64,000 nucleotides of DNA from Antedon mediterranea. Taxonomy: Eukaryota; Echinodermata; Crinoidea; Comatulida; Antedonidae. Positions 11,316 to 59,001 of this stretch are shown in pieces; the first letter of the stretch is position 1, and each line of letters begins with the position of its first letter. Where the stretch lies: contig NC_092676.1 of assembly GCF_964355755.1 (NCBI RefSeq), positions 912,288 through 976,287 of the forward strand, given 5' to 3'. The position numbers and the translations under genes are program-made. Under the pieces are notes generated by a model. It was not told the origin of the DNA, ran no database searches, and worked only from the letters and a program-made list of their open reading frames with translations.

Positions 11316-14300
11316 ATGACAAGCCCTTACAACAACTTAAAAAAGAACAAGAAAATGCCACTGCCAGGGTAAGAAGACAAATAAAAATACAGAAATAAAA
11401 AATTAAAATTTTTAAAACCATAAAATTAAAATTTAATTAGTAAAAGAGACACTTTTGTATTTACAGACAGCGCGCTGCACCTTACAGATCTGTTCCAGTT
11501 ACTGGAGACACAATTCTTGATGAGATGTTACAGAGGCTAGAGTTGCAAGAAAAGAGTGGAGTATACATTGAAGATGCTTCAGGTTCTAATAAGAAAACAC
11601 AAACAGGAAGAAAGAACTCAGCACCTGGTAACAATATACATGTCAAGTTTTGGGTTTGCTGCTGGCTTGAGATTCTCCAATTATGACCGCGCCATGTGAG
11701 AGCTTGAGGTCGGGTCAAATCATGAGACTTGACGTGTATGTGACGCATCGTTCCCACAGTTAAATTAATAATTATCATTTGAGATTTTTCCGCTTTATAT
11801 GACCACAGTAGTACCATATTAATAAGTTGTCTCCTTTGGGGTCCAACAAAGTGTGTTCTCTAAATAGGGGTGTCCCAACTTTTCTACTCTGTGCCTTTTT
11901 AGTTTAACATAATTTCAACAAATTTAAATAAATAGTTTTACTTTTACATTAAACTCAAGACAACTGAATCATTTTAAATAGTGATAGTGAAAAGTGAAAG
12001 TGCTATGATTAATAGATTTGTTTTTCTTTACTCATAAAATGTTTTGTACTCTCGTTTAGCGTGTCAAACAGTTTCAGTTTCATTGACACAATACAAATAC
12101 AATTGAGAACATTCAATGGGCAAAAATAAGCATAAAAAACCCAACAAATTAAGCAAAAGTAAGACATCAAATCAAATACTAAAAGGTTAATTTTTGTTAT
12201 TGCTTTTTTATTTAGTGGTTCCAACTGATATGGACCTGATGAGTGGTATGATGAGTAAAATATCCCAGTTGGAGTTACAAGTGAAATATTACACTAAAGA
12301 AATTATTGACAAGGTAAATGTGTTTTAAACTAAATTCATTCTCCTTCCATAATTTTAAAGTCTGTAAAATCTGAATTCCGCTCCTGTAAAATCTGAATTC
12401 CACTCCTGTAAAATCTGAATTCCACTCCTGTAAAATCTGTTCCACTCCTGTACAGAACCAGTAGTGATAAATTGGTTGTAGGTAATCATTTTTATACGTA
12501 GCCTAAATAAAGAAAATAATATTTTAACATTATCTATTTTTATTCTATTGATAAATTATTCTGTATTTTAATGTTTACAGGATAAGAAAATAAATGTTTT
12601 AGAAGAAAAGGTTAATCTTTTACAAAGATATAAAGGTACAGGTAGGTACAGGTAAAGGTACAGGTAAAAGTACAGGTAAAGGTACAGGTAGGTACAGGTA
12701 GGTACAGGTAAAGGTACAGGTAGGTACAGGTAAAGGTACAGGTAGGTAGGTAGGTACAGGTAGGTAGGTAGGTACAGGTAGGTAGGTAGGTACAGGTAGG
12801 TAGGTAGGTACAGGTAGGTACAGGTAGGTAGGTAGGTACAGGTAGGTAGGTACAGGTAGGTAGGTAGGTACAGGTAGGTAGGTAGGTACAGGTAGGTAGG
12901 TAGGTACAGGTAGGTAGGTAGGTACAGGTAGGTACAGGTAGGTAGGTAGGTACAGGTAGGTAGGTAGGTACAGGTAGGTAGGTAGGTACAGGTAGGTAGG
13001 TAGGTACAGGTAGGTAGGTAGGTAGGTAGGTAGGTACAGGTAGGTACAGGTAGGTAGGTAGGTACAGGTAGGTACAGGTAGGTAGGTAGGTATTATTTTG
13101 ATTGAATGAAGAGAATACAATTATAAATGTCAAACACCCTGCCAATTGAATCCTGTGTGTTTGCAAGCCTTTTGATATAACAAAATATATATTTTTTCTC
13201 TTTGTTACTTTTGTGCTTTTTTTTTATCGATTTTAAAAAAGATTGAGATTTGATTGATGGAGGTATATAGACAAATATGCTCATTTAACCATGATGGTGT
13301 AACCAACACATAATTATTCTCTGTTAAGGTTAAAATAATTATCATAATGTTTATTGTTAGTGGCGATGATTCGCTGTTGGTCTGGAACGTAATAAAGAAT
13401 AAAAAAGAATAAAAAAATATAATTATTATTTTCTTACAGGATGTAATGAAGAAAGTGGTACAAGAAGTCACAAAGTTGAAGAATTGGAAAGAAAATGTCA
13501 AAAACTAGAAATAGAACTCCAAGATATTCAAGTTAGTACTCAGCTGATGGTGCTGATATTTCTCGTTCGATTAAAATTTCAATAATGTGTTTAATTTGTC
13601 TGTTTCAGTTTCAACTATAATAATAATATTTGTTCTGTGGTAGAGTTTTTTTAATTAGATTTTCAAACCTTAAAATATAGAATGATAATTATCACTTTTA
13701 ATCACCATATTAATATATTATAGGAATTCTTGGAAGATTATGGTATGGTTTGGGTTGGAGATGATGATGATGTTTATGAAGAGTTAAATGAAACAGAGAA
13801 ACCAACAGTGGGGAATCCAGGTATTAAGTAGTTACTGAAATTGCGCCCTCCATGCTTGGTTGATATTTTTACATTTACAGTACAGCACAATCTATGGTTT
13901 TGCCATAGTTTTATAAAGACAAACTCTCAATATTTAATTTTACCAAGTTGGGAGCTCTTCTGCTTAGAGATTGCACATGCAAACTAGAAGTACTTGCAGT
14001 TTTGTGATTAATATATGATTTATAAAATGATCAAGTTACAATGTTTGAGTATAAAATTATCGTTGTAATTGTTTTCAACAGCAGCTTCACTGGCTTCAGA
14101 CCAAAATCAAAAAGTTGATTTTGACAGGGTGATTGAAAACATTAAAGAGTTAAACGTCATTGCTGGTGAAGGGTTAAAAGAAATAAAACATACGTCTGGA
14201 GGTGCAAGATTACACACTAAAGAGCAGGTACCACTGACCCTGTACGCTAATGGTATCTTCATGTTCAATGGACCTTTCAGGTGCTATGATGAACCTAGTA

Positions 14301-17300: not shown

Positions 17301-20300
17301 ATCTAAGGATCAATTTTTAAACAAGCTTCCTCAAAGTGTTGTTAGAAATGGCAAGGTAATAGATGTGCGTTCTTCAATAGGCAACCAATTATCTTCTACA
17401 AATTCAAAGGCTCACATTACAGTCATTGATACGCCTATAGTTAAATCCATCAAGGAGCGTGTTAACAGACACCCGTCAGCGAACGCAAAGACCACACGCT
17501 CATCGACTCGTCCATTGTCGGCACGCAACGTTGCTACATTGCGAGTGAAATCTGAAGCCGGTAACGAAACTTATGTGCTCAAGTTAGGATATGGTGATAC
17601 AATAGGAGATGTGAGGAAGTACATTGATGAACATAGGTAATTACATATTGATTAAACTTAGTCTGCTTTCAGTAGTGCTTTGTTGCTGATATGCGTACCT
17701 AGTCTAATTGACTTGTGTACTCATTGTCTAATCTAATACATGGTCCTTCAGTCTCATTTCTCAAGTTATCATTGCCATGTTATGCATACTTCATTGGCCA
17801 TAATAGTCACTGACTTATTTGATATTCGTTACTGTTGCTCAACTAGCAACCATTTTCACCTTTTCTCTCAACTATGCAGTTCATATGCAGTTATTATTTC
17901 CCTGTAATGCATTTTCCATTAACCTTTATAGTCAATGATTTCTTTGATATTCTTTATTTTCACCTCTCTTAACTATGCAGTTAGTATTGTCTTCAAGAGG
18001 GGATCTAGCATGGTTGCTTGTTGGACATGTGGTTCCCCTCTTATACTAACAGCTAAAATGAAATTATTAACTACTTTTTAATATAAATTGTTGAAACTGA
18101 CAAGCTATTAATATTATTATGTTATATGCGAGCTTGCTTCCATTGCATCTTTTTTCTTAATTGTCAAATATTATTTTGCATATTAATAACTGTCATGCAT
18201 TAAACAATAACAAACACACAAACATAAAATTATATGAAGAAGCAGTATAATAAATTCTATTAACAATATGCAATCATCAGTATACTTTCTAATTATAGCT
18301 ACTATAAACCATATTGATTAAAACTTCATTACTAATTCAGTGTTTTATGGCTAAAAGTAGTAACCTTCTCTCAATGATGTATTGATTAAAAAGATGAATT
18401 GCTAATACCATTATTGAACTTTTACTTATTATTTATTTTTATACTACACCCTTAACAGCTCCCTACATTAAGCAATGTGTTGTATTAGTGTGTGTCAATA
18501 TACAGTGTTGTGTGGGTCAGTGTCAATGTACAGTGTTGTGTGGGTCAGTGTCAATGTACAGTGTTGTATGAGTCAGTGTCAATCTACAGGGTTGTATGAG
18601 TCAGTGTCAATCTACAGTGTTGTATGAGTCAGTGTCAATCTACAGGGTTGTATGAGTCAGTGTCAATCTACAGTGTTGTATGAGCAGTGTCAATCTACAG
18701 TGTTGTATGAGCAGTGTCAATCTACAGTGTTGTATAAGCAGTGTCAATCTACAGTGTTGTATGAGCAGTGTCAATCTACAGTGTTGTATTAGTGTGTGTA
18801 AATCTACAGTGTTGTATACGTCAGTGTCAATCTACAGTGTTGTACGGTGTGTGTCAATCTACAAATGTTGTGTGGGTCAGTGTCAATATACAGTTTTGTA
18901 TGAGACAGTGTTGTATGAGACAGTGTCAATATACAGTGTTGTATGAGTGAGCGTCAATCTACAGTGTTGTGCGAGTGTCAAGAACAGTGTTGATATAAAG
19001 TTTGCGGTACACCACGTATATTAGTTCCGAAAAGAACTGTTGAGTTTCTCAACGTTTCGATCAATATGCTTTGATCAGTTTCAGTTTCAGTTTATTTTCC
19101 ATTTCAATTTATGAACATAAGATAAACAACTTATATGGATGGATAACCGTAAGAGCGAAGCTCGTTAGCCGGTCACCCGTTAGTGCAGTGACATTACAGA
19201 CAACATAAAGACAAGACAAAGGTGCAATACATAACAAGACATGTGAACACTTGTGTTTGCAACCCCTTGGATAAAAAATATATTTATATAAAGGAGAAAA
19301 TTAGATATTAATTATTATATTTCTTTTTGATCATAAAATGATAATTTTTAACTTACTTCTGAAGAAGGTTAACATGAAGATTACATATAGTTATTTTTAT
19401 TTTTACTAGTACATGGTAATAAAATCTGAATATCATCTTTTAGATAAAAAATGTAATAGATTTACATACACACACATATATATGTATATATATATAAATC
19501 AAAGAGCTGCATAGGCAGGATATAGAAAAAAATCAAGATCAAATAAGTTAAAACTGCCTCAATATAGATTTATTTTAACGACATGTTTCGGGCATAGCCC
19601 ATCATCAGGTGAAAAGAATTGTAACAAAGGATAACATATATATTGTTTAAGTAAACTTAAATAATGTTACTTAAATATAACATAATATTACTGATATGTT
19701 GATAATAAACTGTGAATAAATTTCTTCTTAAATAAACTTAAGGTACATTGGTTCTTAATAAAATTGCTTATATCATTCCACAATATAGGTCCTTGCCGTT
19801 TAATGGTATTCATTCCCAGGTCTGTTCTGAAATTATGCGGACGCAAATCATTTAATGTTCTTGTATTATGAAAATGTGTTTCTTTTACCCTAGCCCAAAA
19901 AGTATTGAAATTACTTGGTAGATTATTATTAACAAAATTAAACATAAAAATTGCTTTTTGTAATTTATAATTATCATAGATTGTTAAAGTTTTTAATTTT
20001 AAAAATAAGGGTGCAGTATGGGCCAGCCAGGATGAGTTTGTACAGAGTCTAATTATTTTCTTTTGTTTTAAATGAATAGTTTTCAAATTGCAGTTGTTTG
20101 CATCTGCCCAAATAAGATTACAATAATATAAGTATGGGAGAACTAGAATGTGCGATATAAAGAAAATAAAATATTCGGTGCGAGAGTCTAAATAAAGTGC
20201 CAGTATATTTAGAAATAATATTGGATATATATTCTGTGTGATTAAACCATGTTAGTGTTTCATCTATAATTACGCCTAAAAATTTAGTATTAGAGACCTG

Positions 20301-20858
20301 TGAAATAGTAGTATTGTCAATCATAATTTGAATATAGTGATATTGTCATCTACTATGCTTATTTTTAAATATAATGTAATTTGTTTTAAGTATATTAAGT
20401 GATAATTTATTAGATTTAAGCCAGGAGGAAACTTTATTTAGTTCTTGATTTACTGTCGTAATGAGTTGTTTAATTTATCAGAAACTACTATATTGGTGTC
20501 ATCTGCGTATAAATAAAATGAGAAATTATCGGAAATAGAAACAATATCGTTTAAATAAATTATAAATAATAATGGGCCCAAAATGGACCCTTGTGGATCG
20601 TCCTCAGGAGTGAGGTGTACCGCAAACTTTATATCAACATTTGATTTCTCCTTGCAAACCTTCAAACAACATAAGAACAGTGTTGTATAGCGTATTAATT
20701 AAATGCGTTGTTTCATTTTTTACAGGTCTATGGGCAACATAGAATATGAGATCCTCACTACATTTCCAAGAAGAACATACTCAGATCCACTAGCTACTCT
20801 TGAACAATGTGGCCTGACACCAAATGCTACAGTTATACTAAGAACAAAGAAACTATGA
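11316..20858 (+). CDS. UBXN11: UBX domain-containing protein 11 (Socius)
   Basis: Eleven coding exons join in phase: 11316-11368, 11467-11627, 12216-12313, 12581-12635, 13440-13531, 13724-13820, 14082-14305, 15214-15291, 15849-16026, 17291-17636 and 20726-20858 (stop 20856-20858), giving 504 residues. Residues about 75-165 look like a coiled coil. Residues about 235-300 form a SEP domain with LYANGIFMFNGPFRCYDEPS and the hallmark DFTDGYFPSELKKRYPDG. The linker keeps the family stretch DQFLNKLPQSVVRNGKVIDV. The last 80 residues are a UBX fold (VATLRVKSEAGN ... YEILTTFPRRTY ... LTPNATVILRTKKL). Family knowledge: UBX proteins usually bind p97/VCP, and UBXN11 binds Rnd GTPases; vertebrate forms have a Pro/Gly repeat tail that is absent here. 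Introns are hosts to several repeats, including a LINE in the last one. Confidence 0.95.
12361..12452. repeat. Four-copy tandem repeat, about 22 bp unit, UBXN11 intron 3
   Basis: Copies of CTCCTGTAAAATCTGAATTC with small changes; the last copies are shorter. Confidence 0.85.
12636..13092. repeat. GGTA/GGTACA minisatellite starting at the UBXN11 exon 4 splice donor
   Basis: About 450 bp of GGTA and GGTACAGGTA units. The array starts directly at the donor of exon 4 (AAAG|GTACAG), and its first units keep AAAGGTACAGGTA, a copy of the exon-intron boundary. The minus-strand frames rich in Pro, Thr, Tyr and Leu across it are artefacts. Confidence 0.95.
15345..15445. repeat. Tandem repeat TATTATTGTAGTATTACCTA-like, UBXN11 intron 8
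   Basis: Three to four imperfect copies of a unit close to 30 bp. Confidence 0.75.
16148..16200. repeat. Fragment of the palindromic MITE seen at 8310
   Basis: TATACAAATAATGAATGTTT and the following bases match the left arm of the element at 8310-8345. The rest of the element is not recognisable. Confidence 0.75.
18478..18985. repeat. VNTR with a 25-28 bp unit, UBXN11 intron 10
   Basis: About 18 imperfect copies of GTCAATCTACAGTGTTGTAT with spacer variants GAGTCAGT, GAGCAGT and GGGTCAGT. The plus-strand frames rich in Ser, Val, Cys and Gln are artefacts. A mobile insertion begins at its right edge. Confidence 0.9.
18971..20683 (-). mobile_element. 5'-truncated non-LTR retrotransposon, with adjoining repeat ends
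   Basis: On the minus strand, 20450-20665 encodes reverse-transcriptase motifs PQGSILGPLLFIIYLNDI and YADDTN, and 19688-20086 encodes the usual C-terminal region of CR1/jockey-type elements (RRQGPILWN-like and FKKKFIHSLL). The reading frame is broken between them. The 3' end looks LINE-like, with repeated CTGAAA near 19080. AAGAACAGTGTTG occurs on both sides (18971-18983 and about 20671-20683), a probable 13-bp target duplication. Two motifs of the form CTGATGA...CGAAAC lie at about 19575-19605 and 19045-19080 on the minus strand. Confidence 0.8.
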
Positions 20859-24662: not shown

Positions 24663-27600
24663 ATGTACATGCGCAATGTCCTCATCCTGTCGTCATTTAT
24701 GTTAGCAGTTTTTGCTATATTCGTAGTCAATGCACAGACAACATTGCAGGTAGGCATATATTGCAATGTTAGCATTGTGGTGTTTTTTTTAGGATTAGTC
24801 TTTATGACGAAAACACATTTGCAATACTCTATTTTAAAGTCAATACATTGTTATATAAAAAATATTATGATTCATGTAAAAATTAATAATTACTAGATGG
24901 CACGCTCGCTTCGCTCGCGTACCATCTAGGTCGTGCCCACAGATGGTTCTCGAATACACAGTATTTTCCAGCGAGAAAAAAATGGAGATTTCAAATAGTA
25001 CGTACTGCAGGACTATAATACATTGTCGTTTACAGAAACGAATAAATATACACGATGATTTATGTAGTCAGCTAAAATTAGCACCCTGGGAATTACTTCC
25101 GAGAGAGAAACAAAATGAGTCATTTTTTTTTATTTGGACTCATTTAAACAAACCAAATTTGTGTTTTGTATGTAACATTAAGGGTTGAGGGATGGGGGAA
25201 GAAGATAGGTACAAAGAGGAAACATTTTAAAATATATTCTTATCCACTCAGTAACGAAATATTGTTTTTAATGTTTTATAGGCCTATAAATAATATACCA
25301 CTAAATACAGTAAAACATTTACGATTTAATACTTTGTTAAAACTCTCACTGTCATAGTCGATTGAAATACTAAAGTACATGTAACGATACACCACTACGT
25401 ACGTTTATATATTTTTAAATTATTAATTAATACAAACGTTGAGAAGCAACTGTCAGTAATAACGTTTATTTATTTGTATATTATATGTTTATAATCTAAC
25501 AGTAGGGCCTACCCACACTCACGGTAATAAAGTTTATTTGTATATTTGTTTATATTATATCTAACAGTACCAACACTCACAGTAAGAAATTTGCGATTCA
25601 AATTGCGATCAAAAGTGGTTAATACCTTAACAGTATTGTACAGCATTGCAATACTATTTATGTTTATTCTCCAAGGAGGCCCATAAATCTAAATCTATAC
25701 CTCTATAGTTAAACCAAATAATTTGGAATGTTCCATTCATCACAAATCAATACATTTGTAAAAACGTATATTACATGTATCAAAATAGCATTTTTTAAAG
25801 AAAATCGGCCTGTCTTCAACATTATGATGCTGTACTCGAACTGTTCAACCAGTTTTCAGCTATTAAAAACAATTATCGTAGGAGGAGATAGGAAAATGCG
25901 AAGTGTCCTCGTATTATTGTGTGCGGGTATTTTTCAAATTGACATCCATTAGACAGTGTATACCACGATCGGAAAACACCCCTATTTGGGGCAAATCGTT
26001 GAACCTAAATTCGTTTTAATCGTCAATAACTAATTATCGAACTCAATTTAATTAGTAAACAGGGTTACATCAGGTGGTTAAAATTAGTACCGAAAGTACG
26101 AACCAACTTTATATACCATCGAGTAAACATTCTAGAAATAACGCGCGATTTATCGATTTTTGCCCTTACGTAAATTTATATATAGATAATAATGTATTCT
26201 TATTATGCTTTCCTTTTTGATGAAAATTAGGCGGGAGCGAATCCTTATATATTCAAATATATTTTATTTTATACACATTTAAATTCATTCCTAATTTATA
26301 ATCATTAAATGGATATGGATTGCTGAATTAGAGAAACGTGTGACCCCGCGCATCGACAATGCAATGTACTGTGTAGGCCTTTCAACATTATAACAAAAAT
26401 TTAATGATAACAAATATTACTATCGGCATTTTAGAAAATATTCAAAATTGATATTCCATTACTTTACTATTGTTTATTGTAATATAAATTATTATTTACT
26501 ATAATTATTCATATTCTATTTTTTTTTAATGGAATTTTAGCCGGAACCAGAAGCGACTCCATCTGTAAGTAAATGCTATCCTTAAAATATAATCATACCT
26601 TATAAACATCATAATCTGTATAATTAGTACCAGTTGGTGAAGGCCCTCTATATCAACAAAACAAGTTTTGGGCGCGTTCAAACGATGATAACAATTAACA
26701 TAATTCTTACGCGCACGTTGACGAACATGATAATAATAAATACAACCATGATTCTTATTACATGATAACTGATTATAATCTATTCTACTATTATTCAATT
26801 TGTATGTGACGATTACATTAATAACGAGGTTGGTTCCTACAGCGAGAAACGCAATGATGATAACATAATACGCGCAAGGCAAGGTTTGCGCGCGCGTAGA
26901 ACTTGATCAGTTATCCCAAGAATTGCGGTGGGCAAATTATAATACTCTCTTCGTTCTAGAAGGAACCAATCTTGTATATAAAAAAGAATATAATATTGTT
27001 ATAAAACTTATAGCGCGTTAATTTTTTTTCTCAATCCGCACTAATGTTGTAGGCAGAGCCAGGGGGTAATGTAAGTATAGGCATGGCGTGTATTAGTGCA
27101 TTGATTTGAGTGTGATAGTCGTGTTTGCATGTCGTTAAGCCTTGTCTACACTATCAAACTTTATGTGACAAAAAAATGTGATGTGCCCATATATGGACAC
27201 GATGATGTCATATCACTACCATATTTAGTCATACCACTACCATATTTGATCATATCACTACCATATTTGGGCACATCACACTTTTTTGTCAAACTAGTTT
27301 GATAGTGTTGACAGAGATTAAGATGAGTCTTAATACCCCTTTATGTCTTCTATACGCGATATTGTATGCTCATTCATTTTAAATTAGATGAATGGTCTGA
27401 ATTATGCTGTTCCTTTTATTTGTGATTCAGTTTCAATGTGTTTGAATTACGTTGCAGTAAACCGTCTTGTGCATGTGCAAAGCTTGATGATTGTTTTAAT
27501 ATGTAGAATTCTGTTTTCCAATTAAACAAGTTTGGTTTAATATTAAATACACAGTAAAGTAACTGAAGGCAAAATCTTTTTCTATAGCGTTATGTAGGCC

Positions 27601-30600
27601 TTAAGCTCTATCAAACTTTATGTGACAAAAAATGTGATGTGCTCATATGGACATGATGATGTCATAGCACTACCATATTTAGGCATATCACCACCATATT
27701 TGGGCACACTTTCTTTGTGAAACTAGTTTGATAGTGTAGACAGAGCTTAATACACAAACGTGTTTTATGTTCTCACGGATAAAGTTATGAATTCTATTCT
27801 ATTAGTAAAGTTATGCTGTTTGTGGCACGCCGTTTTTCGAAAAGGAAACACAGTACAATTGAGAGTTTCTCGACATTTTGGTCGTTAGGCCACGACGGCG
27901 TTGGCAATAGCACAACAACAACCAACACGTCACGAGACATTCTTACCATGTATTTCCTTTTGGGAACCCATGATGTTATACCACAAACCTAACTTTATCA
28001 TTATATTTATTTGGCATGCAGACATTTAAACAGTATTGTAATGAAATGCTAGCTACTAATAATTAGGTACGTAGGCTAATAAAATAATAATAAGTTTTTG
28101 ACGTCATTAATACACCCATGCAATATTCGTGTGAGATTACACGATATTTAACTATTTAGCGTGTCTTCGTAATACTGTATAATGTTGATTCATTGTGTAG
28201 CGATATCTCATAAACGCACAACGCAAGGATGTACACACAATGTCATTTTACGCGCGTATAAACGATGATAACAACTAACATATTTCTTACGCGCGCGTTG
28301 ACGAATTTTACCAATACAAGCGCGACGGATTAAGTAGCTTGTGATTGGTCAATTGTTTTGTACATTTATTTGCGTTCGCATGGCGACAATCGCTATAGTT
28401 ATTTTAACTCGAAAGTTCGGTGGAATCATTCATGATTTATTTAATCAATATTTTGTTGTCGTGATCTTGTGTAGTTTATGTCAATTGTAGAAAGACGTAT
28501 GAGGTTCATCTTAGAATAAAAATAAATTAATTCATAATTACAACAACTCAATTGAGACTATACAATAAAAAAAAGAAATTGTATTTCTATATATATGCGT
28601 GTGAATGTATTGATATTATATTTATATACAAATATATAAACTGAAAGAAACACAAATTATGATAACAAACGTTTCATAAGTAAACAACTTTTTTTCTTAA
28701 ATATGCAATAGATAACATAATATGCAGAAAATAATGTAAACATATAATAGTTCTGTAATTGTTTTTTTATGTAACATTGAATGAATGAAGGTGGTGGTTA
28801 ACAACAAAAGATAAAAAAAAATGGTGTTGTATGAGCACGATCGATGTATATTGATGATATTACCCTTAGGGTCTTTCACACCTGTTCTGGCACGGTTCCG
28901 GTCCGGCGCCGGAAAATCCAATTGAACGTCAATGTTTCGTTTTCACGCGGCTACGCGCATATCGATTGTCGCATAGCCGCGTGGAGCATCGTGAAAACGA
29001 CTCACATTGTTCCATTCGCCGGACCGGAACCGTGCCGTAACAGGTGTGAAAGACCACTTAGAACTTTACATCAACATATCTGGTGTATGCTTAAATTATA
29101 TTTCTATCTGTACTTGTAATTGTATAATTTATTCATAATCGTTCTTTATTTAGTTATCTACACTTCTTTCTGTCTGAATTTAATTTTTTTTTAAATTATT
29201 TAAAATTTATTTACTGGATGTATTGATTTTATGTAAATATCATGGAACCGAAGCCTAATAGTATCATTATCGTTGTTTTTCAGGCTGAGCCAGAAGCTAC
29301 TGTTACAGTAAGTTATATCTAATCATTTTGCATTTACTCGTACTTAAGCCTATCTATCTATCATAGACAATCTACTGGCCATCTATTGTTATAGACTATT
29401 ATCAGTGCTATCTTTAAAGCTTGGTTCCCACTAACGACGCAACGTAACGCAATCTACGCAACGTAAGCAAATGTCCTTATAATAATGGTATTTGCCCCCG
29501 CCTGCGTGAAATCAAACATGCTGTGTTTGCAGCACTATGCGTTCGTCATCGATTACACTTTGCTTCAATACGTCACCGCGTTGCGTTCTAGTGGGAACCA
29601 TGCTTTAGATGAGTAAAATTACGCCTTTAGTTGCGTTCAGTCGTGAGAAGAACCTATACGTTTTAAAAGCGTTATTATCAAGCTCAAACCAGCCATCATC
29701 ATAAATATCATCAACATCATCAACAATTCATCCCCAGTTATTGTTGCCGGCCATTATAATCAGGTGCTATTCATATTCCATCATTTAGTTTATGTCTTTA
29801 TACTAAATGACACTTTCATTGATTGGTTCCTTATAAGTAGTGAACATTAACAATATCATAATAACAGTTACAATAGCTTTTGAAGTATGCCAATTATTAA
29901 TATCACCATACAATTCATCTTCACTCCTTTAATGTTGCAACTTATATAACCTGTTATTTTCGATTTATGAAAACAACATACTAACATTACGTGTTATTTG
30001 TTTTTCTTTTAGAGTGAACCGGAGGTAAGCGACGTCAGCATGTCTATAAAATGTTCAATAAATTCAACCGATCTTGTATATATTTAGCAGGGAATCGCAT
30101 AAGAGCAAAGGCCATGAACCTATACCGTATATAGCATTCAAGAAAGTTCAAGAAGTCCCGAATCCTAAATAAAACATTTTTGTATAATTTATTTGTAAAT
30201 TTATATTTTAAGTTAAGGGTGCCCCACAGATCAATAGCTTTGCTTGCTGTTTTTCACACTTTATTGAAACTTTCTTGTCTTCTTTTGATTTATATAGTTA
30301 AGAATTTTGTGTGAAAAATGAAAAATACTCAATCAATCAATCAAAAAAGCTTGGTTCCCACTAGCGACGCAACCCACCAACCTACGCAACGTATGAAAAT
30401 GCCCTTTCAATAATTGTGTTTGACCCCATCTGCGTGAAATCAAACCTGTGATGTTTGTAGCACCGTTGCGTCGTCGGTTCCCACGCAATTAAAGCACTTT
30501 TCGTCAATACGTCGTTGCATTGCATTGCGTTGCGCGAGTGGGAACAACGCTAAAGCTTGGTTCCCACTAGAACGTAACGCAAGGACGTAAACGCAACGCA

Positions 30601-31005
30601 AGCGTTTTAACCAATGACAAGCGAAGTTATAGACATTTAGCAATCACAAGCGAATAAGCCATCGCTTGTGATTGGTCAATTCACTTGAGTTGCGTTACGT
30701 CCTTGTGTTGCGTCGCTAGTGGGAACCACGCTTTAACACGAATGCAAGGACGTAAGCGAGTGAGTTTACAAGTGAGGGTACCACCAGCACAAGCGAAAGT
30801 TCGTAGGATAATCCATCACTTGTGATTGGTAATTAAGTTACCTGCGTTGCGCGTATATCTTTGCGTTGCGTCCATTCAATACTGACGAATTAACTTCTTT
30901 TAACTGTTTCAGATGACCACAGCAAGCGGTTCTGTATCATATTCTGGTAGTTTATTCTTCATTACTGGATGCATTTTAAATACACTTCTAGTCAAGACGC
31001 TTTGA
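24663..31005 (+). CDS. Small secreted or GPI-anchored protein encoded by phase-0 micro-exons
   Basis: No known family was recognised. Six coding exons join in phase 0: 24663-24749 (29 codons), 26541-26564, 27053-27070, 29284-29307, 30013-30024 and 30913-31005 (stop 31003-31005), giving 85 residues. Every internal exon has a pyrimidine-rich acceptor and a GTAAG(T/C) donor, and a length divisible by three. Exon 1 encodes a typical signal peptide (Met, Arg, long hydrophobic core, cleavage expected after FVVNA). The micro-exons encode PEPEATPS, AEPGGN, AEPEATVT and SEPE. The last exon begins MTTASGSVSYSG and ends in a hydrophobic tail, as in GPI-anchor signals; a Lys lies three residues from the end. 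The mature peptide would be only about 40 residues, acidic and rich in Pro, Thr and Ser, comparable in build to CD52-like peptides. Any micro-exon could be skipped or added without frame change. Alternatives: a transmembrane peptide, or a non-coding transcript with chance frames. Confidence 0.7.
26667..26730. repeat. Dispersed repeat, copy 1 (second copy 28249-28312)
   Basis: GCGTTCAAACGATGATAACA and TTCTTACGCGCACGTTGACG recur as CGTATAAACGATGATAACAA and TTCTTACGCGCGCGTTGACG in the next intron of the same gene. Confidence 0.8.
27135..27321. mobile_element. TTAA-flanked MITE, family A copy 1
   Basis: TTAA at 27135-27138 and 27318-27321 flanks inverted repeats TGTCTACACTATCAAACT / AGTTTGATAGTGTTGACA. 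The centre has tandem CACTACCATATTTG units. Related copies are at 27601, 33587, 36473 and 55897. Confidence 0.85.
27601..27750. mobile_element. TTAA-flanked MITE, family A copy 2
   Basis: TTAA at 27601-27604 and 27747-27750. The left inverted repeat lacks the TGTCTACA portion; the right end AGTTTGATAGTGTAGACAGA is complete. Confidence 0.85.
28866..29060. mobile_element. TTA-flanked MITE with about 40-bp inverted repeats (Harbinger-like)
   Basis: TTA at both ends; inverted repeats contain GGTCTTTCACACCTGTT and GGCACGGTTCCGGTCCGGCG. A second, inner palindrome surrounds TCGTTTTCACGCGGCTACGC near 28935-29005. No coding capacity. Confidence 0.85.
29416..29606. mobile_element. MITE, family B copy 1
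   Basis: Ends AAAGCTTGGTTCCCACTA and TAGTGGGAACCATGCTTTA are inverse complements; the interior has repeated GCAACGTAACGC-type sequence. Confidence 0.85.
30346..30554. mobile_element. MITE, family B copy 2
   Basis: Ends AAAGCTTGGTTCCCACTAG and GAGTGGGAACAACGCT; interior clearly homologous to copy 1 (AATGCCCTT, CTGCGTGAAATCAAAC, CAATACGTC). Confidence 0.85.
30553..30735. mobile_element. MITE, family B copy 3, abutting copy 2
   Basis: Begins AAAGCTTGGTTCCCACTAG directly after copy 2 and ends CTAGTGGGAACCACGCTTTA. The interior has ACAAGCGAA and CGCTTGTGATTGGTCAA, also seen at 28330, 30820 and 35650. A partial fourth copy follows to about 30880. Confidence 0.85.
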
Positions 31006-33891: not shown

Positions 33892-34250
33892 GATGAACCT
33901 GTACACACTGTAGTAACACCTGATGAACCTGTACACACTGTAGTAACACCTGATGAACCTGTACACACTGTAGTAACACCTGATGAACCTGTACACACTG
34001 TAGTAACACCTGATGAACCTGTACACACTGTAGTAACACCTGATGAACCTGTACACACTGTAGTAACACCTGATGAACCTGTACACACTGTAGTAACACC
34101 TGATGAACCTGTACACACTGTAGTAACACCTGATGAACCTGTACACACTGTAGTAACACCTGATGAACCTGTACACACTGTAGTAACACCTGATGAACCT
34201 GTACACACTGTAGTAACACCTGATGAACCTGTACACACTGTAGTAACACC
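33892..34250. repeat. Perfect 12 x 30-bp tandem array
   Basis: Twelve identical units, GATGAACCTGTACACACTGT plus AGTAACACCT, with no substitution; the last unit is followed by TACTCTTTC. All three minus frames are open because the period is a multiple of three. On the plus strand one frame is open and reads DEPVHTVVTP per unit, but a stop codon (TGA, 33889-33891) lies directly before it, and it stops at about 34277. Confidence 0.95.
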
Positions 34251-34430
34251 TTACTCTTTCAGCGACTCCACGTTATCATGATAGACCACATTAGTTATGT
34301 AAAGCCTCATACATTTGAACTAACATTAAAGTTCAAGGCACATTGTAACCCAATCATTTGTTCTGCTGTATACTGCAAATCAAGATTTAGTCATTAAAAA
34401 ATTATTAATTTTAAAAGTGGTTTGATACCA

Positions 34431-40029: not shown

Positions 40030-47097
<7,068 letters not shown>

Positions 47098-47330: not shown

Positions 47331-49469
47331 TTAATAATTATATATTTTTACATTGTTTGACCCAAAGTTTGCTACAGCTACCCTTCTTGGTTGGTTAGAG
47401 ATTATAGCAATTCCAAGAGGAGTGTTTAACCCACCATCATCTATTCTTTTTATAAAAACCCCATTTTTATCAAATAACTGAAGTTTGTGATTACTTGATA
47501 CCAGTATGTTTTCCTTAGAATCAATTATGACATAATGAGGACTTTCAACAACGCAACCTGCACCCACAAGATTTCTCATAAACTCATCATTTGCATCAAA
47601 CATTTGTATTCTGTTATTTCCACGGTCTGCAACAATTATGTTTCCCTCTTTTGTTAGTGCAACACCATATGGTTGATTCATATATCCACCGTTGCTACCG
47701 TATGACCCAATTTGACCAAGAAGTTTACCATTATCAACATTAAATTTAAACACACAATGATTTTCACTATCTGCAACATACATGATTCTAGTTTCCTTAT
47801 TGACTGTCAGCCCACATGGATGTTTAAATGTACCTTCACCAAATGTACAAATTTTCTTCAGTTTGTCATCACACATTACAACAGTTTTTTCAAATGTGTC
47901 CCCATGAAGAATTTTGCCATCGTCCATTTGGTGCATATATGCAACATTTACACGGTGTTCTAATGATATTCTACCAATAAAAGAGTATTCTTTGTTAAAC
48001 TTTAGTAAATCTTTACTGTAACTTGATATTAATATACACCCGTCTTCTTGTACTAACACATCTTTTACTTCTTTATGGTTGTTGTGTACTTTAAGCTGTC
48101 CAATGTTATCAATGGTATGTACAAGCACTGGTGCTTTCACCTTGATTTTCACTGGTGATCCTTCGATTTCTTTTGCTCTACAGGTGATGTTCATCTTCCA
48201 TTTTCCTTCTTTATTGGGTCTTCCTGTTATTTTGTACTCTCCACTTCCCTGGTGTGTCACTTGATTGTCTGATTCTTCACCTGATTCATTAAATAAAGTT
48301 GCAGCCAATAGTGATGTCTCACTTCCTTCTGCACTTGAAACTTTCACTTCAAATGTCTGTCCCTTTATGACTGTAATACGTCTGTCACCTTTAGCAACCT
48401 CATACAAACATTCACCAATTTTACCAATTCCTTCTAAATTGATCACATCCAAGTTTTTAGATGGAATGAAACTTGGGGTCACAATCCCCTTGAATATTGA
48501 TTCATCAAAGTTTGGTTTTAAAACCTCATCTTTAACAACATTGACTTTTGCCTCGTGAGATTTAAATGTATCTCTTTCTTCTGGTTTGTTCATCATTGTA
48601 TTAATTAATGATGACATCCTATTAACTTTCATCAACTTTGAGTCCATTCTGTTAACTCGATCGTCAACCACCTCTCTATTTTCTTTGTAAATCTGTTCAA
48701 GGTCTGTCAACAGAGCTCTGCTGTTCTCATGAACCTTTTTGATAATGTTTTCTTCTTGTAATTTAATCGCTGTTTTGGATAATGTTAATTCAGATTCCAT
48801 GTCTGATCTTTCTTTAGTGATTGTATTGCATGTTTCTTCTAGTTTTTCTTTAATTTCTTTGGCACTTTTCATAACATCTGTAACATTTTGATTAAACTCA
48901 TCTACAGCCGTCTTGAATAGAATCACATTATGTTCATTTTGATAACAACGAAGAACATATTCACATTTCTTGCATCCACTTTTAGAACAAGTTCTACAAT
49001 AAAATTCAAGCATGCAGGTTCCATGAAATTTACATTTATTTGGCAAATCATCTTTATCCAATGTGTACAATGAATGGTTTTTCGTTGAAGGAATTATTTC
49101 ATGTAGCTTGATGCATTGTCCACATAGATATAGCTGACATTCAGAGCAGTAGTATTCAGGTTGGTTATCATCAGAGCTTAAACATTTTGATGGTTTTTCT
49201 TTTTCAATCTTTTTAACATACTCAAGTTGATAACTTAACATTTCATTGGTAGTAAGATCTTTAAAATCAAATTGGTTTAGGTCATCATACATCTTACAGC
49301 ATTTTGGACATTTTATTTTGCCGCTTGTTTCAAGCAAACTCTGTAGGCAATGAAGACAGTAACTATGGAGACACTCAAGTGTCTTTGGTTCTGTCAGTCT
49401 TTCTAGACAGATTGCACATTCAAGATCATTTTTCTCTAATTTAAATTGAAATGCTTTTTGTCCCAACAT
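47331..49469 (-). CDS. TRIM-NHL protein 1 (TRIM2/3-like architecture), intronless
   Basis: A single 712-residue frame. A C3HC4 RING runs from residue 18 to about 57 (CAICLERLTEPKTLECLHSY ... CPKC), followed by a B-box-like zinc site near 95-130 (YYCSECQLYLCGQC), a B-box 2 near 147-185 (CKFHGTCMLEFYCRTCSKSG), a coiled coil near 190-290, a filamin/ABP280-type repeat near 350-440 and NHL repeats from about 450 to the end (MYVADSENHCVFKFNVDNGK; NIIVADRGNNRIQMFDANDE). The architecture predicts a cytoplasmic E3 ubiquitin ligase with an RNA- or protein-binding beta-propeller. Expanded intronless TRIM-NHL sets are known in invertebrate deuterostomes and are often linked to immunity, which is inference here. 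It lies opposite CDC5L. An acceptor-like sequence sits just before the start codon, so a 5' untranslated exon is possible. Confidence 0.95.
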   Translation of the reverse strand: MLGQKAFQFKLEKNDLECAICLERLTEPKTLECLHSYCLHCLQSLLETSGKIKCPKCCKMYDDLNQFDFKDLTTNEMLSYQLEYVKKIEKEKPSKCLSSDDNQPEYYCSECQLYLCGQCIKLHEIIPSTKNHSLYTLDKDDLPNKCKFHGTCMLEFYCRTCSKSGCKKCEYVLRCYQNEHNVILFKTAVDEFNQNVTDVMKSAKEIKEKLEETCNTITKERSDMESELTLSKTAIKLQEENIIKKVHENSRALLTDLEQIYKENREVVDDRVNRMDSKLMKVNRMSSLINTMMNKPEERDTFKSHEAKVNVVKDEVLKPNFDESIFKGIVTPSFIPSKNLDVINLEGIGKIGECLYEVAKGDRRITVIKGQTFEVKVSSAEGSETSLLAATLFNESGEESDNQVTHQGSGEYKITGRPNKEGKWKMNITCRAKEIEGSPVKIKVKAPVLVHTIDNIGQLKVHNNHKEVKDVLVQEDGCILISSYSKDLLKFNKEYSFIGRISLEHRVNVAYMHQMDDGKILHGDTFEKTVVMCDDKLKKICTFGEGTFKHPCGLTVNKETRIMYVADSENHCVFKFNVDNGKLLGQIGSYGSNGGYMNQPYGVALTKEGNIIVADRGNNRIQMFDANDEFMRNLVGAGCVVESPHYVIIDSKENILVSSNHKLQLFDKNGVFIKRIDDGGLNTPLGIAIISNQPRRVAVANFGSNNVKIYNY

Positions 49470-49499
49470 CTGTTAAAATTGAAAGAAAAAATCGTATTT

Positions 49500-52400
49500 T
49501 ACTTTAGATTTAACTTTACTTAATTAATATTATCGTGGAGAATTTCTCCATGGCATATTTACAAAAAAAAGTTTTCAAACCTGGTTTACAGAACTTTCTC
49601 TACTATAAAAGAATCATTTAAAAAATAACTGTTTTATAAAAACTTTAATATTGAAATATATTAATGTTTAACAAAATTGATGGTTAAAATTACGTACAAA
49701 GTGTGTGTTTGTGCATTACTGTATCATAAATGAAATGGGAAGGAAGTTACTAACTTGAATTGTTTACTTTGGGATTTTACAAGACAATTGAGCTTTTTAT
49801 TGGTTGATAATTGTGTATGTCATTGTCACACTAGATATTAGGAAATGCAGTTTGTATCATTCTTGTGTTATTCCTACGCATTGCAACCTTCAAACAACAC
49901 CCACACTAATGTTTTAAGCTATTTACAAAAACTTTTTTTTTAAATGTACTAAAACTTGTCAATTTGGTTTCCTAAGTACAGTACTAGATAAGTGGAGGAT
50001 GCAGCTTTGATATTTCTATGCATGAGAACATCAATCAATCATCGACATTTTTATTCCATAATTAAAATAAGAACATATACAGTACAACATTGATACAACA
50101 TATCTCCCTGCAACATCCAAGCTGTTTTCAGTATTAACAAAGTAAAAGGAAATTGTTAAATACAAATTTTTATTTAAAGTGGTTGCTTTTTTAGTGTTAT
50201 TACTCATAATTACATTTCTGTATTGTGCTCATTTTTCTTGAATATCCAAATGCCATAAGTGGGGGATTTTTTGTAGTCTAAAGTCTAGTTTGTATTTGTA
50301 TCAGACAACAAGTGTCCAGGCCACCAAGTTGATTCGTTACTTTCAATGTGAAATACATAATTAGAACCACCTGCTGATTATTTGTACACTATAATATTCA
50401 ACAACAAAACACATACAATTACATTTTTATTAGTCTGCCAGTGTCTACTGAATAACACATTTTTCCCATATACAATTACTGTATGCCTTTTTCTAATTCA
50501 ATAATTTAAATTCAGATTCTATGTTCTGATCTTTTTTAGGTCTGCTGTGACATGTTTCAGTTTGTCAATATGTTTAACAACTTTTTTTGAAAATTTTCTT
50601 ACATTTCTTTTATTTTAATATGATCATTTTTCTTTTACCGTAGTAGTTTTAATTCTGTGCGATAAAAAAGTAGTTATTTGTATTACATAGATTCAGCGGG
50701 ATTGTCCCGTTTTTTTATGCTCTGGCCCGCTGTCCCGCCTAACCCTTGAATTGTCCCGCCCAACCCTTGAATTGTCCCGCTTTCAAAATATTTTATGATG
50801 AAAAAAAAATAATGAAATAATATTTTGAAAACTACCAAGATTGAATGTTGATACGCCGAATTATTAGGTGAATCGGTGAATTTTATATGAACTGAAGTAC
50901 AGACTACACGACGATTGGATTACGATTGTTACTACTAACGAAAGTAGGCCCAGCCTAGGTTCCTTATCATCTATCAATCATCTGCGGTTAAAACTCACTT
51001 GACTTTCATGCGTTGGTGGCCGGCCTCACGTGACTTCTAGCCAGAGAGCAGGGAACCCAGCAGACAGATGGATGCGGTCGTACGTTGAATTGTTTACAGT
51101 CATCCGATTAGCGAAGCCAGCGCAATTAAATTTTGTAAATTGAACAATGTCTGCAATCGTACTAAAATTACTTTTCAGTTAAAAACAAGTTTAGGCCTAT
51201 AATTTGGGCTTTCTTGTGAAAACATTTTTCACCTCAAAGAAACTTGCTATACCTCCCTGGCTAGACGGCATTACGACAATATTTTGTACCGAAATTCAAT
51301 TAAACGGGGCATTGAAGATCGTCAAAATCCACTCAATATGGCCATTTTCAACCGGGAAAAGTAGATTGGATCGTACAAGGGACCCACTCTGACCAGGGAG
51401 GTAGCAATGTCATATTCGGTTGGGACTTTTACCATTGAGTATATATAGTTTTTCCGTTGATTTAACCTTCCGGCCCTTATTTAACGGCGTATTTTGAGTG
51501 TTGAGATAGTTAACGAAAAATCTTGGTTGTTAAAATATGCATTATGTGTGTCAAATTAATGACGTACGATCGTTTTTTCCATGGCTGGAAACGGACGTCG
51601 TCTTATTTACTAAACTAATATACAGTAAACGTTCTGAAAGGCTACCTGCACGTGTTTGAGCTGCGTATCGTCGCGGTTGTCTGACGGTGTACTTTGTACG
51701 AATCGTTCGTGGCCTAGCTCGTAAAACCTTTCCTGCATGGCTACGGGCCTAATTACGAGAGTCATAATAAGGACTTCCATGTGACAATAGAAGAATATTA
51801 ATCAGGCAGAGTCCGTGATGGTGACATTTTAGGAGGATATTATAAGTATGCGGATTTGTCTGGAGAAATTTCTACACAGAACGAACGCGAAAACCCACCC
51901 ACAAAATAAAAAGGAAGTATGAAATATCAAAAAAGTTTATTTTCTTCAGCAAAACTTTACTTTAATCATTTTAACATTTTAAAAACTATATAATTAACTA
52001 AAATGCTCAGTAAAACATAATTAACACACGCAAAAAAAAACCAATTATACATGATGAATAACAATACAAAAACCCATTCTGGCAGATTGTCAAAAAGCAA
52101 TAAAAATATCGCTATAAACAGACTCTCCTAATGTAGTACAACATAATTAAGTATAATCCGGTTAACATTACACCTTCAAAAGTCTATGATATATATGCTC
52201 AATAAGGATTTTCTAAATCTAAATACAGTGTACTATTAAACTACTAATTGGAGCACTTTTAGTGGATATGTGCACTACGGTACAGAATATACATTTTTTC
52301 AATGTATTAGTTATTTACAAGTACTGATGAATAAGTTTTAATCTTTTATTTATTTTCCAAAGACAAAGTTTGAGGATTGTTGTTACTAGATTATCAGCAG

Positions 52401-52620
52401 GGTAAGTCCAGCCATGTTCTGATTTGTTGAGATTGAAACCAACTGACGGTTGTACCAAACACTACACTCATTTTATACTGACAGATTTATTCTTGAAACA
52501 ATTTTTGATATTTGATATCATTTACTGTGCAGTACAGTATTTATTCATTAGCAAATTATGTTAGTTTGTAAACAGTTGTTTTTTATTAGTATTATTGCTG
52601 TATTACAGTATAGATTGTTA
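49500..52620. other. Spacer between TRIM-NHL genes 1 and 2
   Basis: 49740-49990 and 50230-50410 are homologous to the 5' flank of gene 2 (55030-55290 and 56060-56250), part of one segmental duplication. A short tandem repeat of CTAACCCTTGAATTGTCCCG lies at 50700-50785. No other gene was recognised. Confidence 0.7.
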
Positions 52621-52621
52621 A

Positions 52622-54763
52622 TTAATAATTATATATTTTTACATTGTTTGTCCCCCAGTTTGCTACAGCTACCCTTCTTGGTTGGTTAGAGATTATTGTA
52701 ATTCCAAGGGGATTGTCTAACCCACCATCATCGATTCGTTTGATGAAAACCCCATTTTTATCAAATAACTGTAGTTTGTGATTACTCGATACTAAGATGT
52801 TTTCATCGGAGTCTATGGCTACATAATGAGGACTAACAACATGACCATCTTTCTTACCACTGTCTACAAGAATTCTCATAAACTTATCATTTGCATCAAA
52901 CATTTGTATTCTGTTATTTCCACAGTCTGCTACAATCAGATTTCCTTCTTTTGTCAGTGTAACACCATATGGTCTATTCATTTGACCCTCACTACCATAT
53001 GTACCTATTTCACCAAGAAGTTTACCATTATCAACATTGAATTTAAACACACAATGATTTTCACTATCGGCAACATACATGGTTCTAGTTTCCTTATTCA
53101 CTGTCATAGCACATGGATTTTTTAATAATCCTTTACCAAACGCATGAATTTTCTTCAGTTTATCATCACACATTACAACAGTTTTTCCATAGGTGTCACT
53201 ATGAACTATATGGCCATCGCCCATTTGATGCAAAAAAGCAACATTCACACGATGATTTACTAATACCCTACCAACAAAAGAGTAGTAAGCTGCGTTAAAC
53301 CTTAGCAAATCTTGACTACAACTTGATATTAATATACACCCATCTTTATCTAGTAGTACATCTTTTACTTTTTTTTCTTTATTAAGTACTTTAAGCTGCT
53401 TTTTATCAATGGTATGTACAAGTTGTGCATTCACCTTGATATTCACTGGTGATCCTTTTACTGGTTTCCCTCTAGCAGTTATCTTCATCTTCGATTCTCC
53501 TTCTTTAGGGCATCTTCCTGTTATTTTATACACTCCACTTCCCAGGTGTTTCACTGTGGCTGATTCTTTACCTGATTTGTCAATGTCAATTAAAGTTGCA
53601 GCCAATAGTGATGTCTCACTTCCTTCTGCACTTGAAACTTTCACTTCAAATGTCTGTCCCTTTATGACTGTAATACGTCTGTCACCTTCAGCAACCTCAT
53701 ACAAACATTCACCAATTTTACCAATTCCTTCTAAATTGATCACATTATCCAAGTTTTTAGATGGAATGAAACTTGGGGTCACAATCCCCTTGAATATTGA
53801 TTCATCAAAGTTTGGTTTTAAAACTTCATCTTTAACAACATTGACATTTGTCTCATGAGATTTAAGTGTTTCTCTTTCTTCTGGTTTGTTCATCATTGTG
53901 TTAATTAATGGTGACATCTCATTAACTTTCATCAACTTTGAGTCCATTCTTTTAACTCGTTCATCAACCACCTCCATATTTTTTTTGTAAATCTTTTCAA
54001 GATCTGTGATCAGAGTTCTAGTTTTCTCCTGAACCTTTTTGATAATGTTTTGTTCTTGTGATTCAATCGCTGTCCTGCATAATTTGAATTCAGATTCCAT
54101 GTCTGATTTTTCTCTAGTGATTGTATCTCGTGTTCCTTTAAGTTTTTCTTTTATTTCTTCAGCACATTTCTTAACTTTTTTAGCATTTTGATTAAACTCA
54201 TCTACAGCAGTCTTGAATGGAATCACATTATGGCTATTTTGATAACAACAAAGAACATGTTCACATTTCTTACATCCACTTTTAGAGCAACTTCTGCAAA
54301 AAAATTCAAGCATGCAACCTCCATGAATTTTACATTTATTCGGCAGATTATTTTTATCCAAAGTGTACAATGAATGGTCTTTCAACAAACTGATGATTTT
54401 ATGCTGCTGGATGCATTGTCCACATTGATAAATTTGACATTCAGGGCAGTAGTATTCAGGTTGGTTATCACAGCTTGAGCATTCTGATGGTTTTCCAGAT
54501 TCAATTTTCTCAACATTTTTAACTTGATTACTTAACATTTCATTGATAGTAAAATTGTTCAAATCTTGTTGACTAATGTCATCATACTGTGTACAGCATT
54601 TTGGACATTTTACATTGCCGCTTGTTTTAATCAAACTCTGCAGGCAATGAAGACAGTAACTATGGAGACACTCAAGTGTTTTTGGTTCTGTGAATCTTTC
54701 TAGACAGATTGCACATTCAAGATCCTTTTTGTCTAAAAATTGAAATACTTTTTGTCCTGACAT
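52622..54763 (-). CDS. TRIM-NHL protein 2 (TRIM2/3-like architecture), intronless
   Basis: A single 713-residue frame, a close paralog of genes 1 and 3 in the same orientation. RING from about residue 17 (CAICLERFTEPKTLECLHSY), B-box-like site (CSSCDNQPEYYCPECQIYQC), B-box 2 (CKIHGGCMLEFFCRSCSKSG), coiled coil, filamin-type repeat and NHL repeats (VADSENHCVFKFNVDNGK; LIVADCGNNRIQMFDANDK), ending NWGTNNVKIYNY. Part of the coiled-coil/filamin coding region (53590-53825) is almost identical to gene 1 (48295-48530), while the rest has diverged more. Function as for gene 1. Confidence 0.95.
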   Translation of the reverse strand: MSGQKVFQFLDKKDLECAICLERFTEPKTLECLHSYCLHCLQSLIKTSGNVKCPKCCTQYDDISQQDLNNFTINEMLSNQVKNVEKIESGKPSECSSCDNQPEYYCPECQIYQCGQCIQQHKIISLLKDHSLYTLDKNNLPNKCKIHGGCMLEFFCRSCSKSGCKKCEHVLCCYQNSHNVIPFKTAVDEFNQNAKKVKKCAEEIKEKLKGTRDTITREKSDMESEFKLCRTAIESQEQNIIKKVQEKTRTLITDLEKIYKKNMEVVDERVKRMDSKLMKVNEMSPLINTMMNKPEERETLKSHETNVNVVKDEVLKPNFDESIFKGIVTPSFIPSKNLDNVINLEGIGKIGECLYEVAEGDRRITVIKGQTFEVKVSSAEGSETSLLAATLIDIDKSGKESATVKHLGSGVYKITGRCPKEGESKMKITARGKPVKGSPVNIKVNAQLVHTIDKKQLKVLNKEKKVKDVLLDKDGCILISSCSQDLLRFNAAYYSFVGRVLVNHRVNVAFLHQMGDGHIVHSDTYGKTVVMCDDKLKKIHAFGKGLLKNPCAMTVNKETRTMYVADSENHCVFKFNVDNGKLLGEIGTYGSEGQMNRPYGVTLTKEGNLIVADCGNNRIQMFDANDKFMRILVDSGKKDGHVVSPHYVAIDSDENILVSSNHKLQLFDKNGVFIKRIDDGGLDNPLGITIISNQPRRVAVANWGTNNVKIYNY

Positions 54764-55896
54764 CTGTTAAAATTGAAAGAAAAAATTGTATTTTACTTAA
54801 GATTTACCTTTTTTTAGTATTATCATGAAGAATTTATCCATGGCATATTTGCAACTAAATGTTTTCAAACCTGGTTTACTATATCTAATATAAAAGAATC
54901 ATTACAAAAAACAGTAACTGTTTTATAAAAACTGCAAATTTCAAAAATATTAACAAAAGTGAAGGTTAGAAGTACTTACTTTATCTTGAGAGTGCACTGT
55001 ACTAAAGTGTGTACTTATGTGCTTGATCATAAAGGAAATGGGAAGGAAGTTCATACTATTAACTTGAATTGTTTACTTTGGGATTTTCCAAAACAAGCTT
55101 TTTATTGGTTAATAATGTGCGTGATATGTCACACCAGGAATTAGTAATGCAGTTTGCATCTCTTGTTATTCATACGCATTGCAACCTTCGAACAACACCC
55201 ACACTAACGTTTTAAGCTATTTACAAAAACTTGTTTTGAAAATATACTGAAACGTGTCAATTTGGTTTCCTAAAATCGGTAGATTAATTGAGTGTTCAGC
55301 TTTGATATTTCTATGCCTGATAACATCCATCCTTTTTATTAACTAAAAAAGTAAACTTTAAAATGAAATACAGAGAACTATAGTAGTATACAGTATTATG
55401 TACATCAAATAAGCAATATGTTGGTACCAATGAACTTTAAAGTTTTATAGTTTAATTAAATTTAATGAATTTTAACATTTTTATAAATTATTAACTTTTA
55501 TCTTTAAGTTTGAATGTTGTTTATATAATTTTGTATTGTTTTTAAGAGGGCCTCTTAGCTGTGTAGTACATCTGTTAGAGTTTCAGTACCCTTGTAAAAC
55601 ACAGTTGAATTTAATCAATATATTATCAGTAACAGCTTCATTCATTTTTTTACAAATCTATAATGTTTACTGCACATGATTTGATTGGTTGTAACTTAGT
55701 TGTTGTTACACATCATCGTATGATCATTACATAGGTTACTACTCTACCCCCTGTTTATTTGTCCATGAGGATATTGAACTCAATTATGATCCAATAGCTG
55801 ATGGAACGATTACTCAGAAGTGTATGAATGGATTTAACCCTTTACAGGGACGTTAATAAATCAACACAGCAGTGAGGATGTTTGTATTCTAAAGAA

Positions 55897-56020
55897 TTGT
55901 CTAGACACTATCAAGCTTTATGTGACAAAAAAGTGTCATGTGCCCCAATATGGTAGTGATATGGTCAAATATGGTAGTGATATGACATCATCATGTTCAT
56001 ATATGGGCACTATCACATGC
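55897..56020. mobile_element. Truncated TTAA-type MITE, family A copy 5
   Basis: TGTCTAGACACTATCAAGCT, GTGACAAAAAAGTG and TATGGTAGTGATATG match family A; the other inverted repeat is missing. Confidence 0.75.
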
Positions 56021-56394
56021 AAAGGTATATTTTTAGTATTGTTACAGTACTTACGTTTCTATATTATGCTCGTTTTTCTTGAATATCCATAGTACTTCAA
56101 TCCAAATGTATAAGTGAAGGATTTTTTGTAGTCTACTTTGCATCAAACAAGAAGTGTCCAGGCCACCAAGTTGATCTGTTGCTTTCATGTGAAATACATA
56201 ATTAAAACCACCTGCTGCTTATTTGTACACACTATATTAATTCAACAACAAAACACATACAAATACATTTCTAGCAGTTGCAAGTGGCTGCTAAGCAAGA
56301 TATTTCTCCATTGTAACAGGTTCGTACTACTAGTGTCATAGCTGTATCGCGTAGTATTTTCCGGCGCTACTGTACACCACTGACACAAACACAA

Positions 56395-57970: not shown

Positions 57971-58807
57971 AAAACTAAATAAAATCATCCACAAAGACAA
58001 TTCTTGATTTGAAAAAGTTAAATTCTTTTATTGTAGCTAGTAACCAGTCGGAAGGAGATATAACAAAAACAGTGTTACTATTTAAAATAACATATCAGTA
58101 ATCAAGTCATTAACGACACTAGGCTACTATTGCGTAACAAACAACTAGCAAAAAACTATTAACTACTGTATAGTAAAACCATTAACATGTTTTTTTAAAA
58201 GCAAACAATTCTAAAATGAAGAAAGGTAAAAATATACGCTTACCTACTAACCAATCAGAAGGAGATGAAAATCTTAACTTTGGGCTAGGCACTGGTAAGT
58301 GTCATATATTCACAGTTGTGTATTCTATGACCATTTCCCCCACCTTTTGCTTTAATGGGTCCCACAAGGTTTCTCAGAATCTGCAGATAAATCATTCAAG
58401 TATTGTGTATAATTAACATACCTGTTATTACACATTGTACAAATACATTAGACTTGCCCCAATTCTCTAGCAGCTTTTTATGTTTTATTATAACATCAGC
58501 TGCCATCACAAATTTTTCCAATTGTAGCTCAAAATGTATGAAACGCCATATGTGCCAAAATATTTATCTTTTTCCTAATATTAAGTCGCCATCTATACTA
58601 ACAATTAATATTACACATACAAACACTTTACATGATTAATTAGAAAATTGATAATGAATTTATGAATGTTTAAAATATCTAACAGCTTTATTGTTATTTA
58701 ATATTAATTTGAGAATAATAGTATTGACATTATTTGTAAAAATTAGTTAAAATTTAAGTTAAATTTTTCACTTTCCTAAAGTTAAACATGGTTAGAATGC
58801 ATTGGTT
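57971..58807. other. Spacer left of TRIM-NHL gene 3, no gene seen
   Basis: AT-rich; forms the 3' flank of the broken third TRIM gene. No convincing exon was found. Confidence 0.5.
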
Positions 58808-58957
58808 TTAATAATTATATATTGTTACATTGTTTGCATCATAGTTTGCTACAACTACCCTTCTTGGTTGGTTAGAGATTATTGCAATTCCAAGAGGAGT
58901 AGTTAGGCCACCATAAGCATCTATTCGTTTGATGAAAACCCCGTTTCTATCAAATAA
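58808..58957 (-). pseudogene. Detached C-terminal NHL segment of TRIM-NHL gene 3
   Basis: Encodes LFDRNGVFIKRIDAYGG and PLGIAIISNQPRRVVVANYD, ending NNVTIYNY and a stop, equivalent to the last 49 residues of genes 1 and 2. It continues the frame that is interrupted at 61340. The upstream in-frame Lys-rich sequence comes from an A-tract in the inserted element and is not native. Confidence 0.9.
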
Positions 58958-59001
58958 TTGGTTATCCGCACTTGGCGGATAACCCCTTGTTATTGTCAGG
59001 A

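Follow-up and report, generated by a model that had tools for sequence, protein, structure and literature searches.

A probable single-copy animal gene with four tiny in-frame exons and a predicted small acidic surface peptide

The 64 000-nt stretch of DNA analyzed here (the window, positions 912288-976287 of contig C7) very probably harbors a real, single-copy animal gene that includes four tiny in-frame exons. As far as could be checked, this gene has not been recognized before; it has no counterpart in the family libraries searched and is best read as an orphan with a MEG-like cassette layout outside flatworms. The full reading, that is, a real single-copy, probably unannotated coding gene for a small cell-surface peptide, appears reasonably likely.

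The six exons (Table 1) are spread over 6.3 kb of the + strand (24663-31005), are delimited by AG/GT borders and all have lengths divisible by three. The introns are 1791, 488, 2213, 705 and 888 nt long, and when the exons are joined, all junctions are in phase 0 and the frame reads to a single stop after 85 aa, MYMRNVLILSSFMLAVFAIFVVNAQTTLQ-PEPEATPS-AEPGGN-AEPEATVT-SEPE-MTTASGSVSYSGSLFFITGCILNTLLVKTL-stop. The earlier note on this DNA, which had described six such exons, among them four symmetric phase-0 micro-exons starting with x-E-P and a final exon with Ser/Gly and hydrophobic residues, was accurate on each of these points, and the micro-exons were recovered both by the join and by a fixed-rule scan described below. 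These four exons, of 24, 18, 24 and 12 nt, are consecutive among the six coding exons and account for 78 of the 258 nt of the coding sequence (30%). The codons of their shared E-P(-E-A-T) core differ only synonymously, at third positions (GAA/GAG, CCA/CCG, GCG/GCT), which suggests selection on the peptide, that is, a constraint at the protein level. The next polyadenylation candidate downstream of ATTAAA, an AATAAA at 31399, borders a dispersed repeat. Several MITE-like repeats with inverted ends are embedded in the introns (27150-27320, 27608-27750, 29416-29608 and 30346-30736).

Table 1. Exons of the putative micro-exon gene and its candidate polyadenylation signal (positions in the window)
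Feature	Position	Strand	Length	Description
Exon 1	24663..24749	+	87 nt	donor GTAGGC; good ATG context AACAATGT; MYMRNVLILSSFMLAVFAIFVVNA/QTTLQ; signal-peptide-like; single copy
Micro-exon 2	26541..26564	+	24 nt	PEPEATPS; donor GTAAGT
Micro-exon 3	27053..27070	+	18 nt	AEPGGN; donor GTAAGT
Micro-exon 4	29284..29307	+	24 nt	AEPEATVT; donor GTAAGT
Micro-exon 5	30013..30024	+	12 nt	SEPE; donor GTAAGC; best splice sites among the four micro-exons
Exon 6	30913..31005	+	93 nt including TGA stop	MTTASGSVSYSGS, then hydrophobic LFFITGCILNTLLVKTL; GPI-signal-like; single copy
Candidate polyadenylation signal ATTAAA	31144..31149	+		within the single-copy 3' flank of the micro-exon gene

The splice sites had been called good, and this holds for the AG/GT borders and for the micro-exon donors (three GTAAGT and one GTAAGC) but not for the scores under a stricter generic matrix, which passes exon 5 only and rates exons 2 and 3 as mediocre or poor. 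These poor scores, the main caution at the sequence level, probably reflect both weak sites and a matrix that is unsuitable, being too strict for an AT-rich genome. With phase-0 introns throughout and cassette lengths all divisible by three, loss of any one cassette would remove 4-8 residues and leave the reading frame intact; each of the 16 computed combinations remains open, so that 16 isoforms of 59-85 aa would be possible. Exon 5 is predicted to be retained in most transcripts, and skipping would be likeliest for exons 2 and 3, which have the weaker splice sites. It is quite possible, if somewhat short of probable, that splicing is constitutive and yields a fixed 85-aa precursor, the short exons being an inherited layout as in the vertebrate casein and other SCPP genes. 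Short phase-0 exons alone do not imply alternative splicing, and the gene is single copy without a paralogue, unlike the family-forming schistosome MEGs; against this, weak splice sites in exons of such small size often go along with skipping or regulation, and lengths divisible by three tolerate skipping. Constitutive splicing would bear on the isoforms only and would leave the favored explanation otherwise unchanged. The more far-reaching proposal, that an animal outside the flatworms, probably a deuterostome, independently acquired a schistosome-MEG-like system in which combinatorial skipping of micro-exons diversifies a surface peptide, so that a single gene would encode as many as 16 acidic GPI-anchored variants distinguished by blocks of 4-8 residues, is doubtful.

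The hydropathy profile of the joined protein consists of an N-terminal peak (3.1), an acidic, hydrophilic middle part and a hydrophobic end (mean of 1.8 over the last 17 residues). Exon 1 probably encodes a signal peptide, as had been proposed: the hydrophobic peak is followed by a cleavage site between VNA and Q that fits the -3,-1 rule, and secretion is predicted from this anatomy. After cleavage, the mature stretch up to S60 would comprise 36 aa, with a pI of ∼4.05, 7 Thr, 7 Glu, 6 Pro and no N-x-S/T sequon; micro-exons 2-5 would contribute most of this acidic Pro/Thr/Glu-rich segment, which is probably disordered and also a probable target of O-glycosylation. Exon 6 encodes a Ser/Gly stretch with a possible omega site, S60, then a short spacer and a final stretch of 17 residues, most of them hydrophobic, and this tail would most likely be swapped for a GPI anchor, given that by hydropathy the C-terminus has the anatomy of a GPI signal. 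The description of the product as a tiny acidic peptide of a secreted or GPI type fits this anatomy. The attachment of GPI is not certain because the hydrophobic tail contains N78 as well as K83, a Lys three residues from the end. A product that is not GPI-anchored, either a type I membrane peptide that retains the C-terminal hydrophobic stretch as a transmembrane helix or a plainly secreted one, is a less likely but serious contender: the hydrophobicity of the last 17 residues would suit a GPI signal as well as a transmembrane helix, and a Lys so close to the end is atypical of GPI signals. However, the cytosolic tail of such a protein would consist of only 2-4 residues, and a Ser/Gly run with a short spacer after it is in keeping with a GPI signal.

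That intronic or intergenic sequence offers splice-like signals by accident is highly improbable. Apart from the matrix passing a single exon, this possibility draws on the fact that candidate micro-exons are not rare nearby, with ∼1.4 per 10 kb per strand found by a fixed-rule scan (criteria: YAG, 9 or more pyrimidines among 17 bases, GTRAG, and an open stretch of 6-60 nt divisible by three) that is blind to peptides. When applied to the intron span, however, the same scan picks out the four micro-exons and nothing else on the + strand, and its result for the - strand is empty; the remainder of the window, on both strands, contains 19 candidates, none with x-E-P, and among the 64 candidates on both strands of 224 kb of the chromosome, the x-E-P start is limited to these four (0 of the 60 others). 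A search of the genome (354 Mb in 18 contigs) leads to the same conclusion. Of the strict pattern, a 24-nt x-E-P-E exon followed by GTAAGT, there are two occurrences, both inside this gene. The looser x-E-P...GTAAGT pattern occurs 15 times, close to the counts for the reversed-pattern controls (19 and 17), but 3 of these 15 occurrences fall into a 2.8-kb part of this gene; the probability of any such three-member cluster anywhere in the genome is ∼1e-7. Chance clustering of x-E-P micro-exons is ruled out, and the micro-exons are, moreover, flanked by compatible first and last coding exons. Apart from alternative donors of exons 4 and 5, the introns contain no further x-E-P exons with weak splice sites. 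The motif TAG followed by TGGGAACC was considered as an extra exon and rejected, given that it recurs within a dispersed intronic repeat.

The terminal exons 1 and 6 are single copy in the genome, and the joined protein has no paralogue in the 354 Mb, no match in the PDB and no Pfam family above the cut-off (the best, MUCL1, scores 14.9 bits against a cut-off of 35), all of which agrees with the claim that the gene is undescribed. A literature search for micro-exon genes of this kind in echinoderms returned nothing relevant. No tandem relatives were seen within 224 kb, and the neighbors encode a SEP-domain protein, an amidase (QRSL1-like), a CDC5L-like protein and a TRIM-NHL protein. The only other match of the joined protein in the genome (contig C6, E 0.04), in which an E/P-rich N-terminus precedes a GPCR-like transmembrane segment, was judged to be a chance one. 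The lack of a paralogue and of a known family, along with an exon number below that of typical MEGs, could be taken to indicate a pseudogene, decayed or lineage-specific, of a once larger micro-exon gene, but with all six exons open, their borders intact and zero frame-disrupting lesions, there is very little to recommend this explanation.

The micro-exons had also been suggested to originate by duplication, and on this point the evidence is divided. Exons 2 and 4 share 19 of 24 bases over a stretch that comprises the acceptor and the first 18 exon bases, in support of duplication, but pairwise comparison of the 120-bp intron flanks of the micro-exons revealed no significant similarity. An old duplication with subsequent intron turnover and convergence on x-E-P each fit this pattern.

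In its layout, the gene is closest, in part, to the platyhelminth MEGs, which are apparently restricted to that phylum (PMC4350168). With the MEGs of Schistosoma, Echinococcus and Hymenolepis, it shares a series of four very small symmetric exons, directly one after the other and separated by long introns, and the potential for frame-preserving skipping; the product predicted here from hydropathy and the -3,-1 rule would be secreted or membrane-anchored, as in MEGs (PMC7653826, PMC5825161, PMC10526429). Four of its six exons form a consecutive run of symmetric micro-exons, that is, more than half of the exons, as in MEGs (PMC7653826). The proposed likeness to schistosome MEGs thus stands for the symmetric micro-exon architecture but does not extend further: there are six exons, counting coding exons only and leaving room for an untranslated one, compared with at least seven in MEGs (PMC7653826), 30% rather than ∼80% of the coding region lies in symmetric exons of 6-36 nt (PMC5825161), and the host is very unlikely to be a flatworm. 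The gene is set beside MEGs by layout and not by protein sequence. Indirect evidence on the host comes from the sialyltransferase family PF00777, a very large family expansion in this genome, with ∼150 exon matches on contigs C1-C11, many of them in tandem clusters. Flatworms are not known to have this family, so that these matches point to a deuterostome and not a flatworm as the host. The words TAGGCCTA are also abundant (22 observed compared with 0.6 expected), which we take to be an echinoderm-like feature. Mitochondrial COX1, sought as a marker of the taxon, gave no match.

CD52 can be viewed as the nearest functional analogue with respect to size and anchoring. It has two coding exons and one N-glycosylation site, in contrast to the four cassettes and the sequon-free mature part found here, and no match to the CD52 family was detected by Pfam cut-offs. 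The predicted product would resemble CD52 in having a tiny mature peptide (in soluble human CD52, a 12-aa glycopeptide; PMC11982460) flanked by a signal peptide and a GPI-type tail, the latter predicted here by hydropathy. The SCPP genes, a vertebrate family, likewise have short exons, with the signal peptide encoded early, and disordered products that are secreted; they are not known to have GPI tails, begin with an untranslated exon and carry S-x-E phosphorylation motifs. As in the SCPP genes (caseins, amelogenin, SPP1 and relatives), all introns of this gene are in phase 0 (PMC7807025); there is, however, no Pfam match that would indicate SCPP homology, and the neighboring genes listed above are not those of a SPARCL1-derived cluster. 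Because no homology to MEGs, CD52 or SCPP proteins was detected by the Pfam and PDB searches, the gene is filed under none of these.

A MEG-type layout has been described as apparently confined to flatworms. A well-supported case in another animal would demonstrate that this architecture is able to emerge more than once, and its role in diversification could then be tested in an animal that is not a parasite; diversification of the product through cassette inclusion is an attractive hypothesis. Genes of tiny exons are easily overlooked by gene finders and RNA-seq aligners, so that animals may have more surface peptides of this kind than current counts suggest.

Several other features of the window merit mention. 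On the - strand, the region 47331-63343 contains at least three tandem long-ORF genes of the RING/B-box/filamin/NHL type (TRIM2/3-like), which together with a fragment around 58808-59116 amount to a locally expanded family. An array at 33892-34251 consists of twelve identical 30-bp units (GATGAACCTGTACACACTGTAGTAACACCT) and offers several open frames, with both strands represented; one of them reads DEPVHTVVTP and was considered as a possible related coding exon, but this was rejected in view of the identical copies, the multiple open frames and the lack of a good acceptor. Partial matches (∼72%) recur on contig C3 between 19.7 and 25.1 Mb. Long minisatellites are located at 12634-13092 (18-28 bp units), 18477-18911 (28 bp) and 46318-46667 (22 bp), and remains of a LINE-type reverse transcriptase (YADDTNI), split over several frames, are recognizable on the - strand at 19688-20698.
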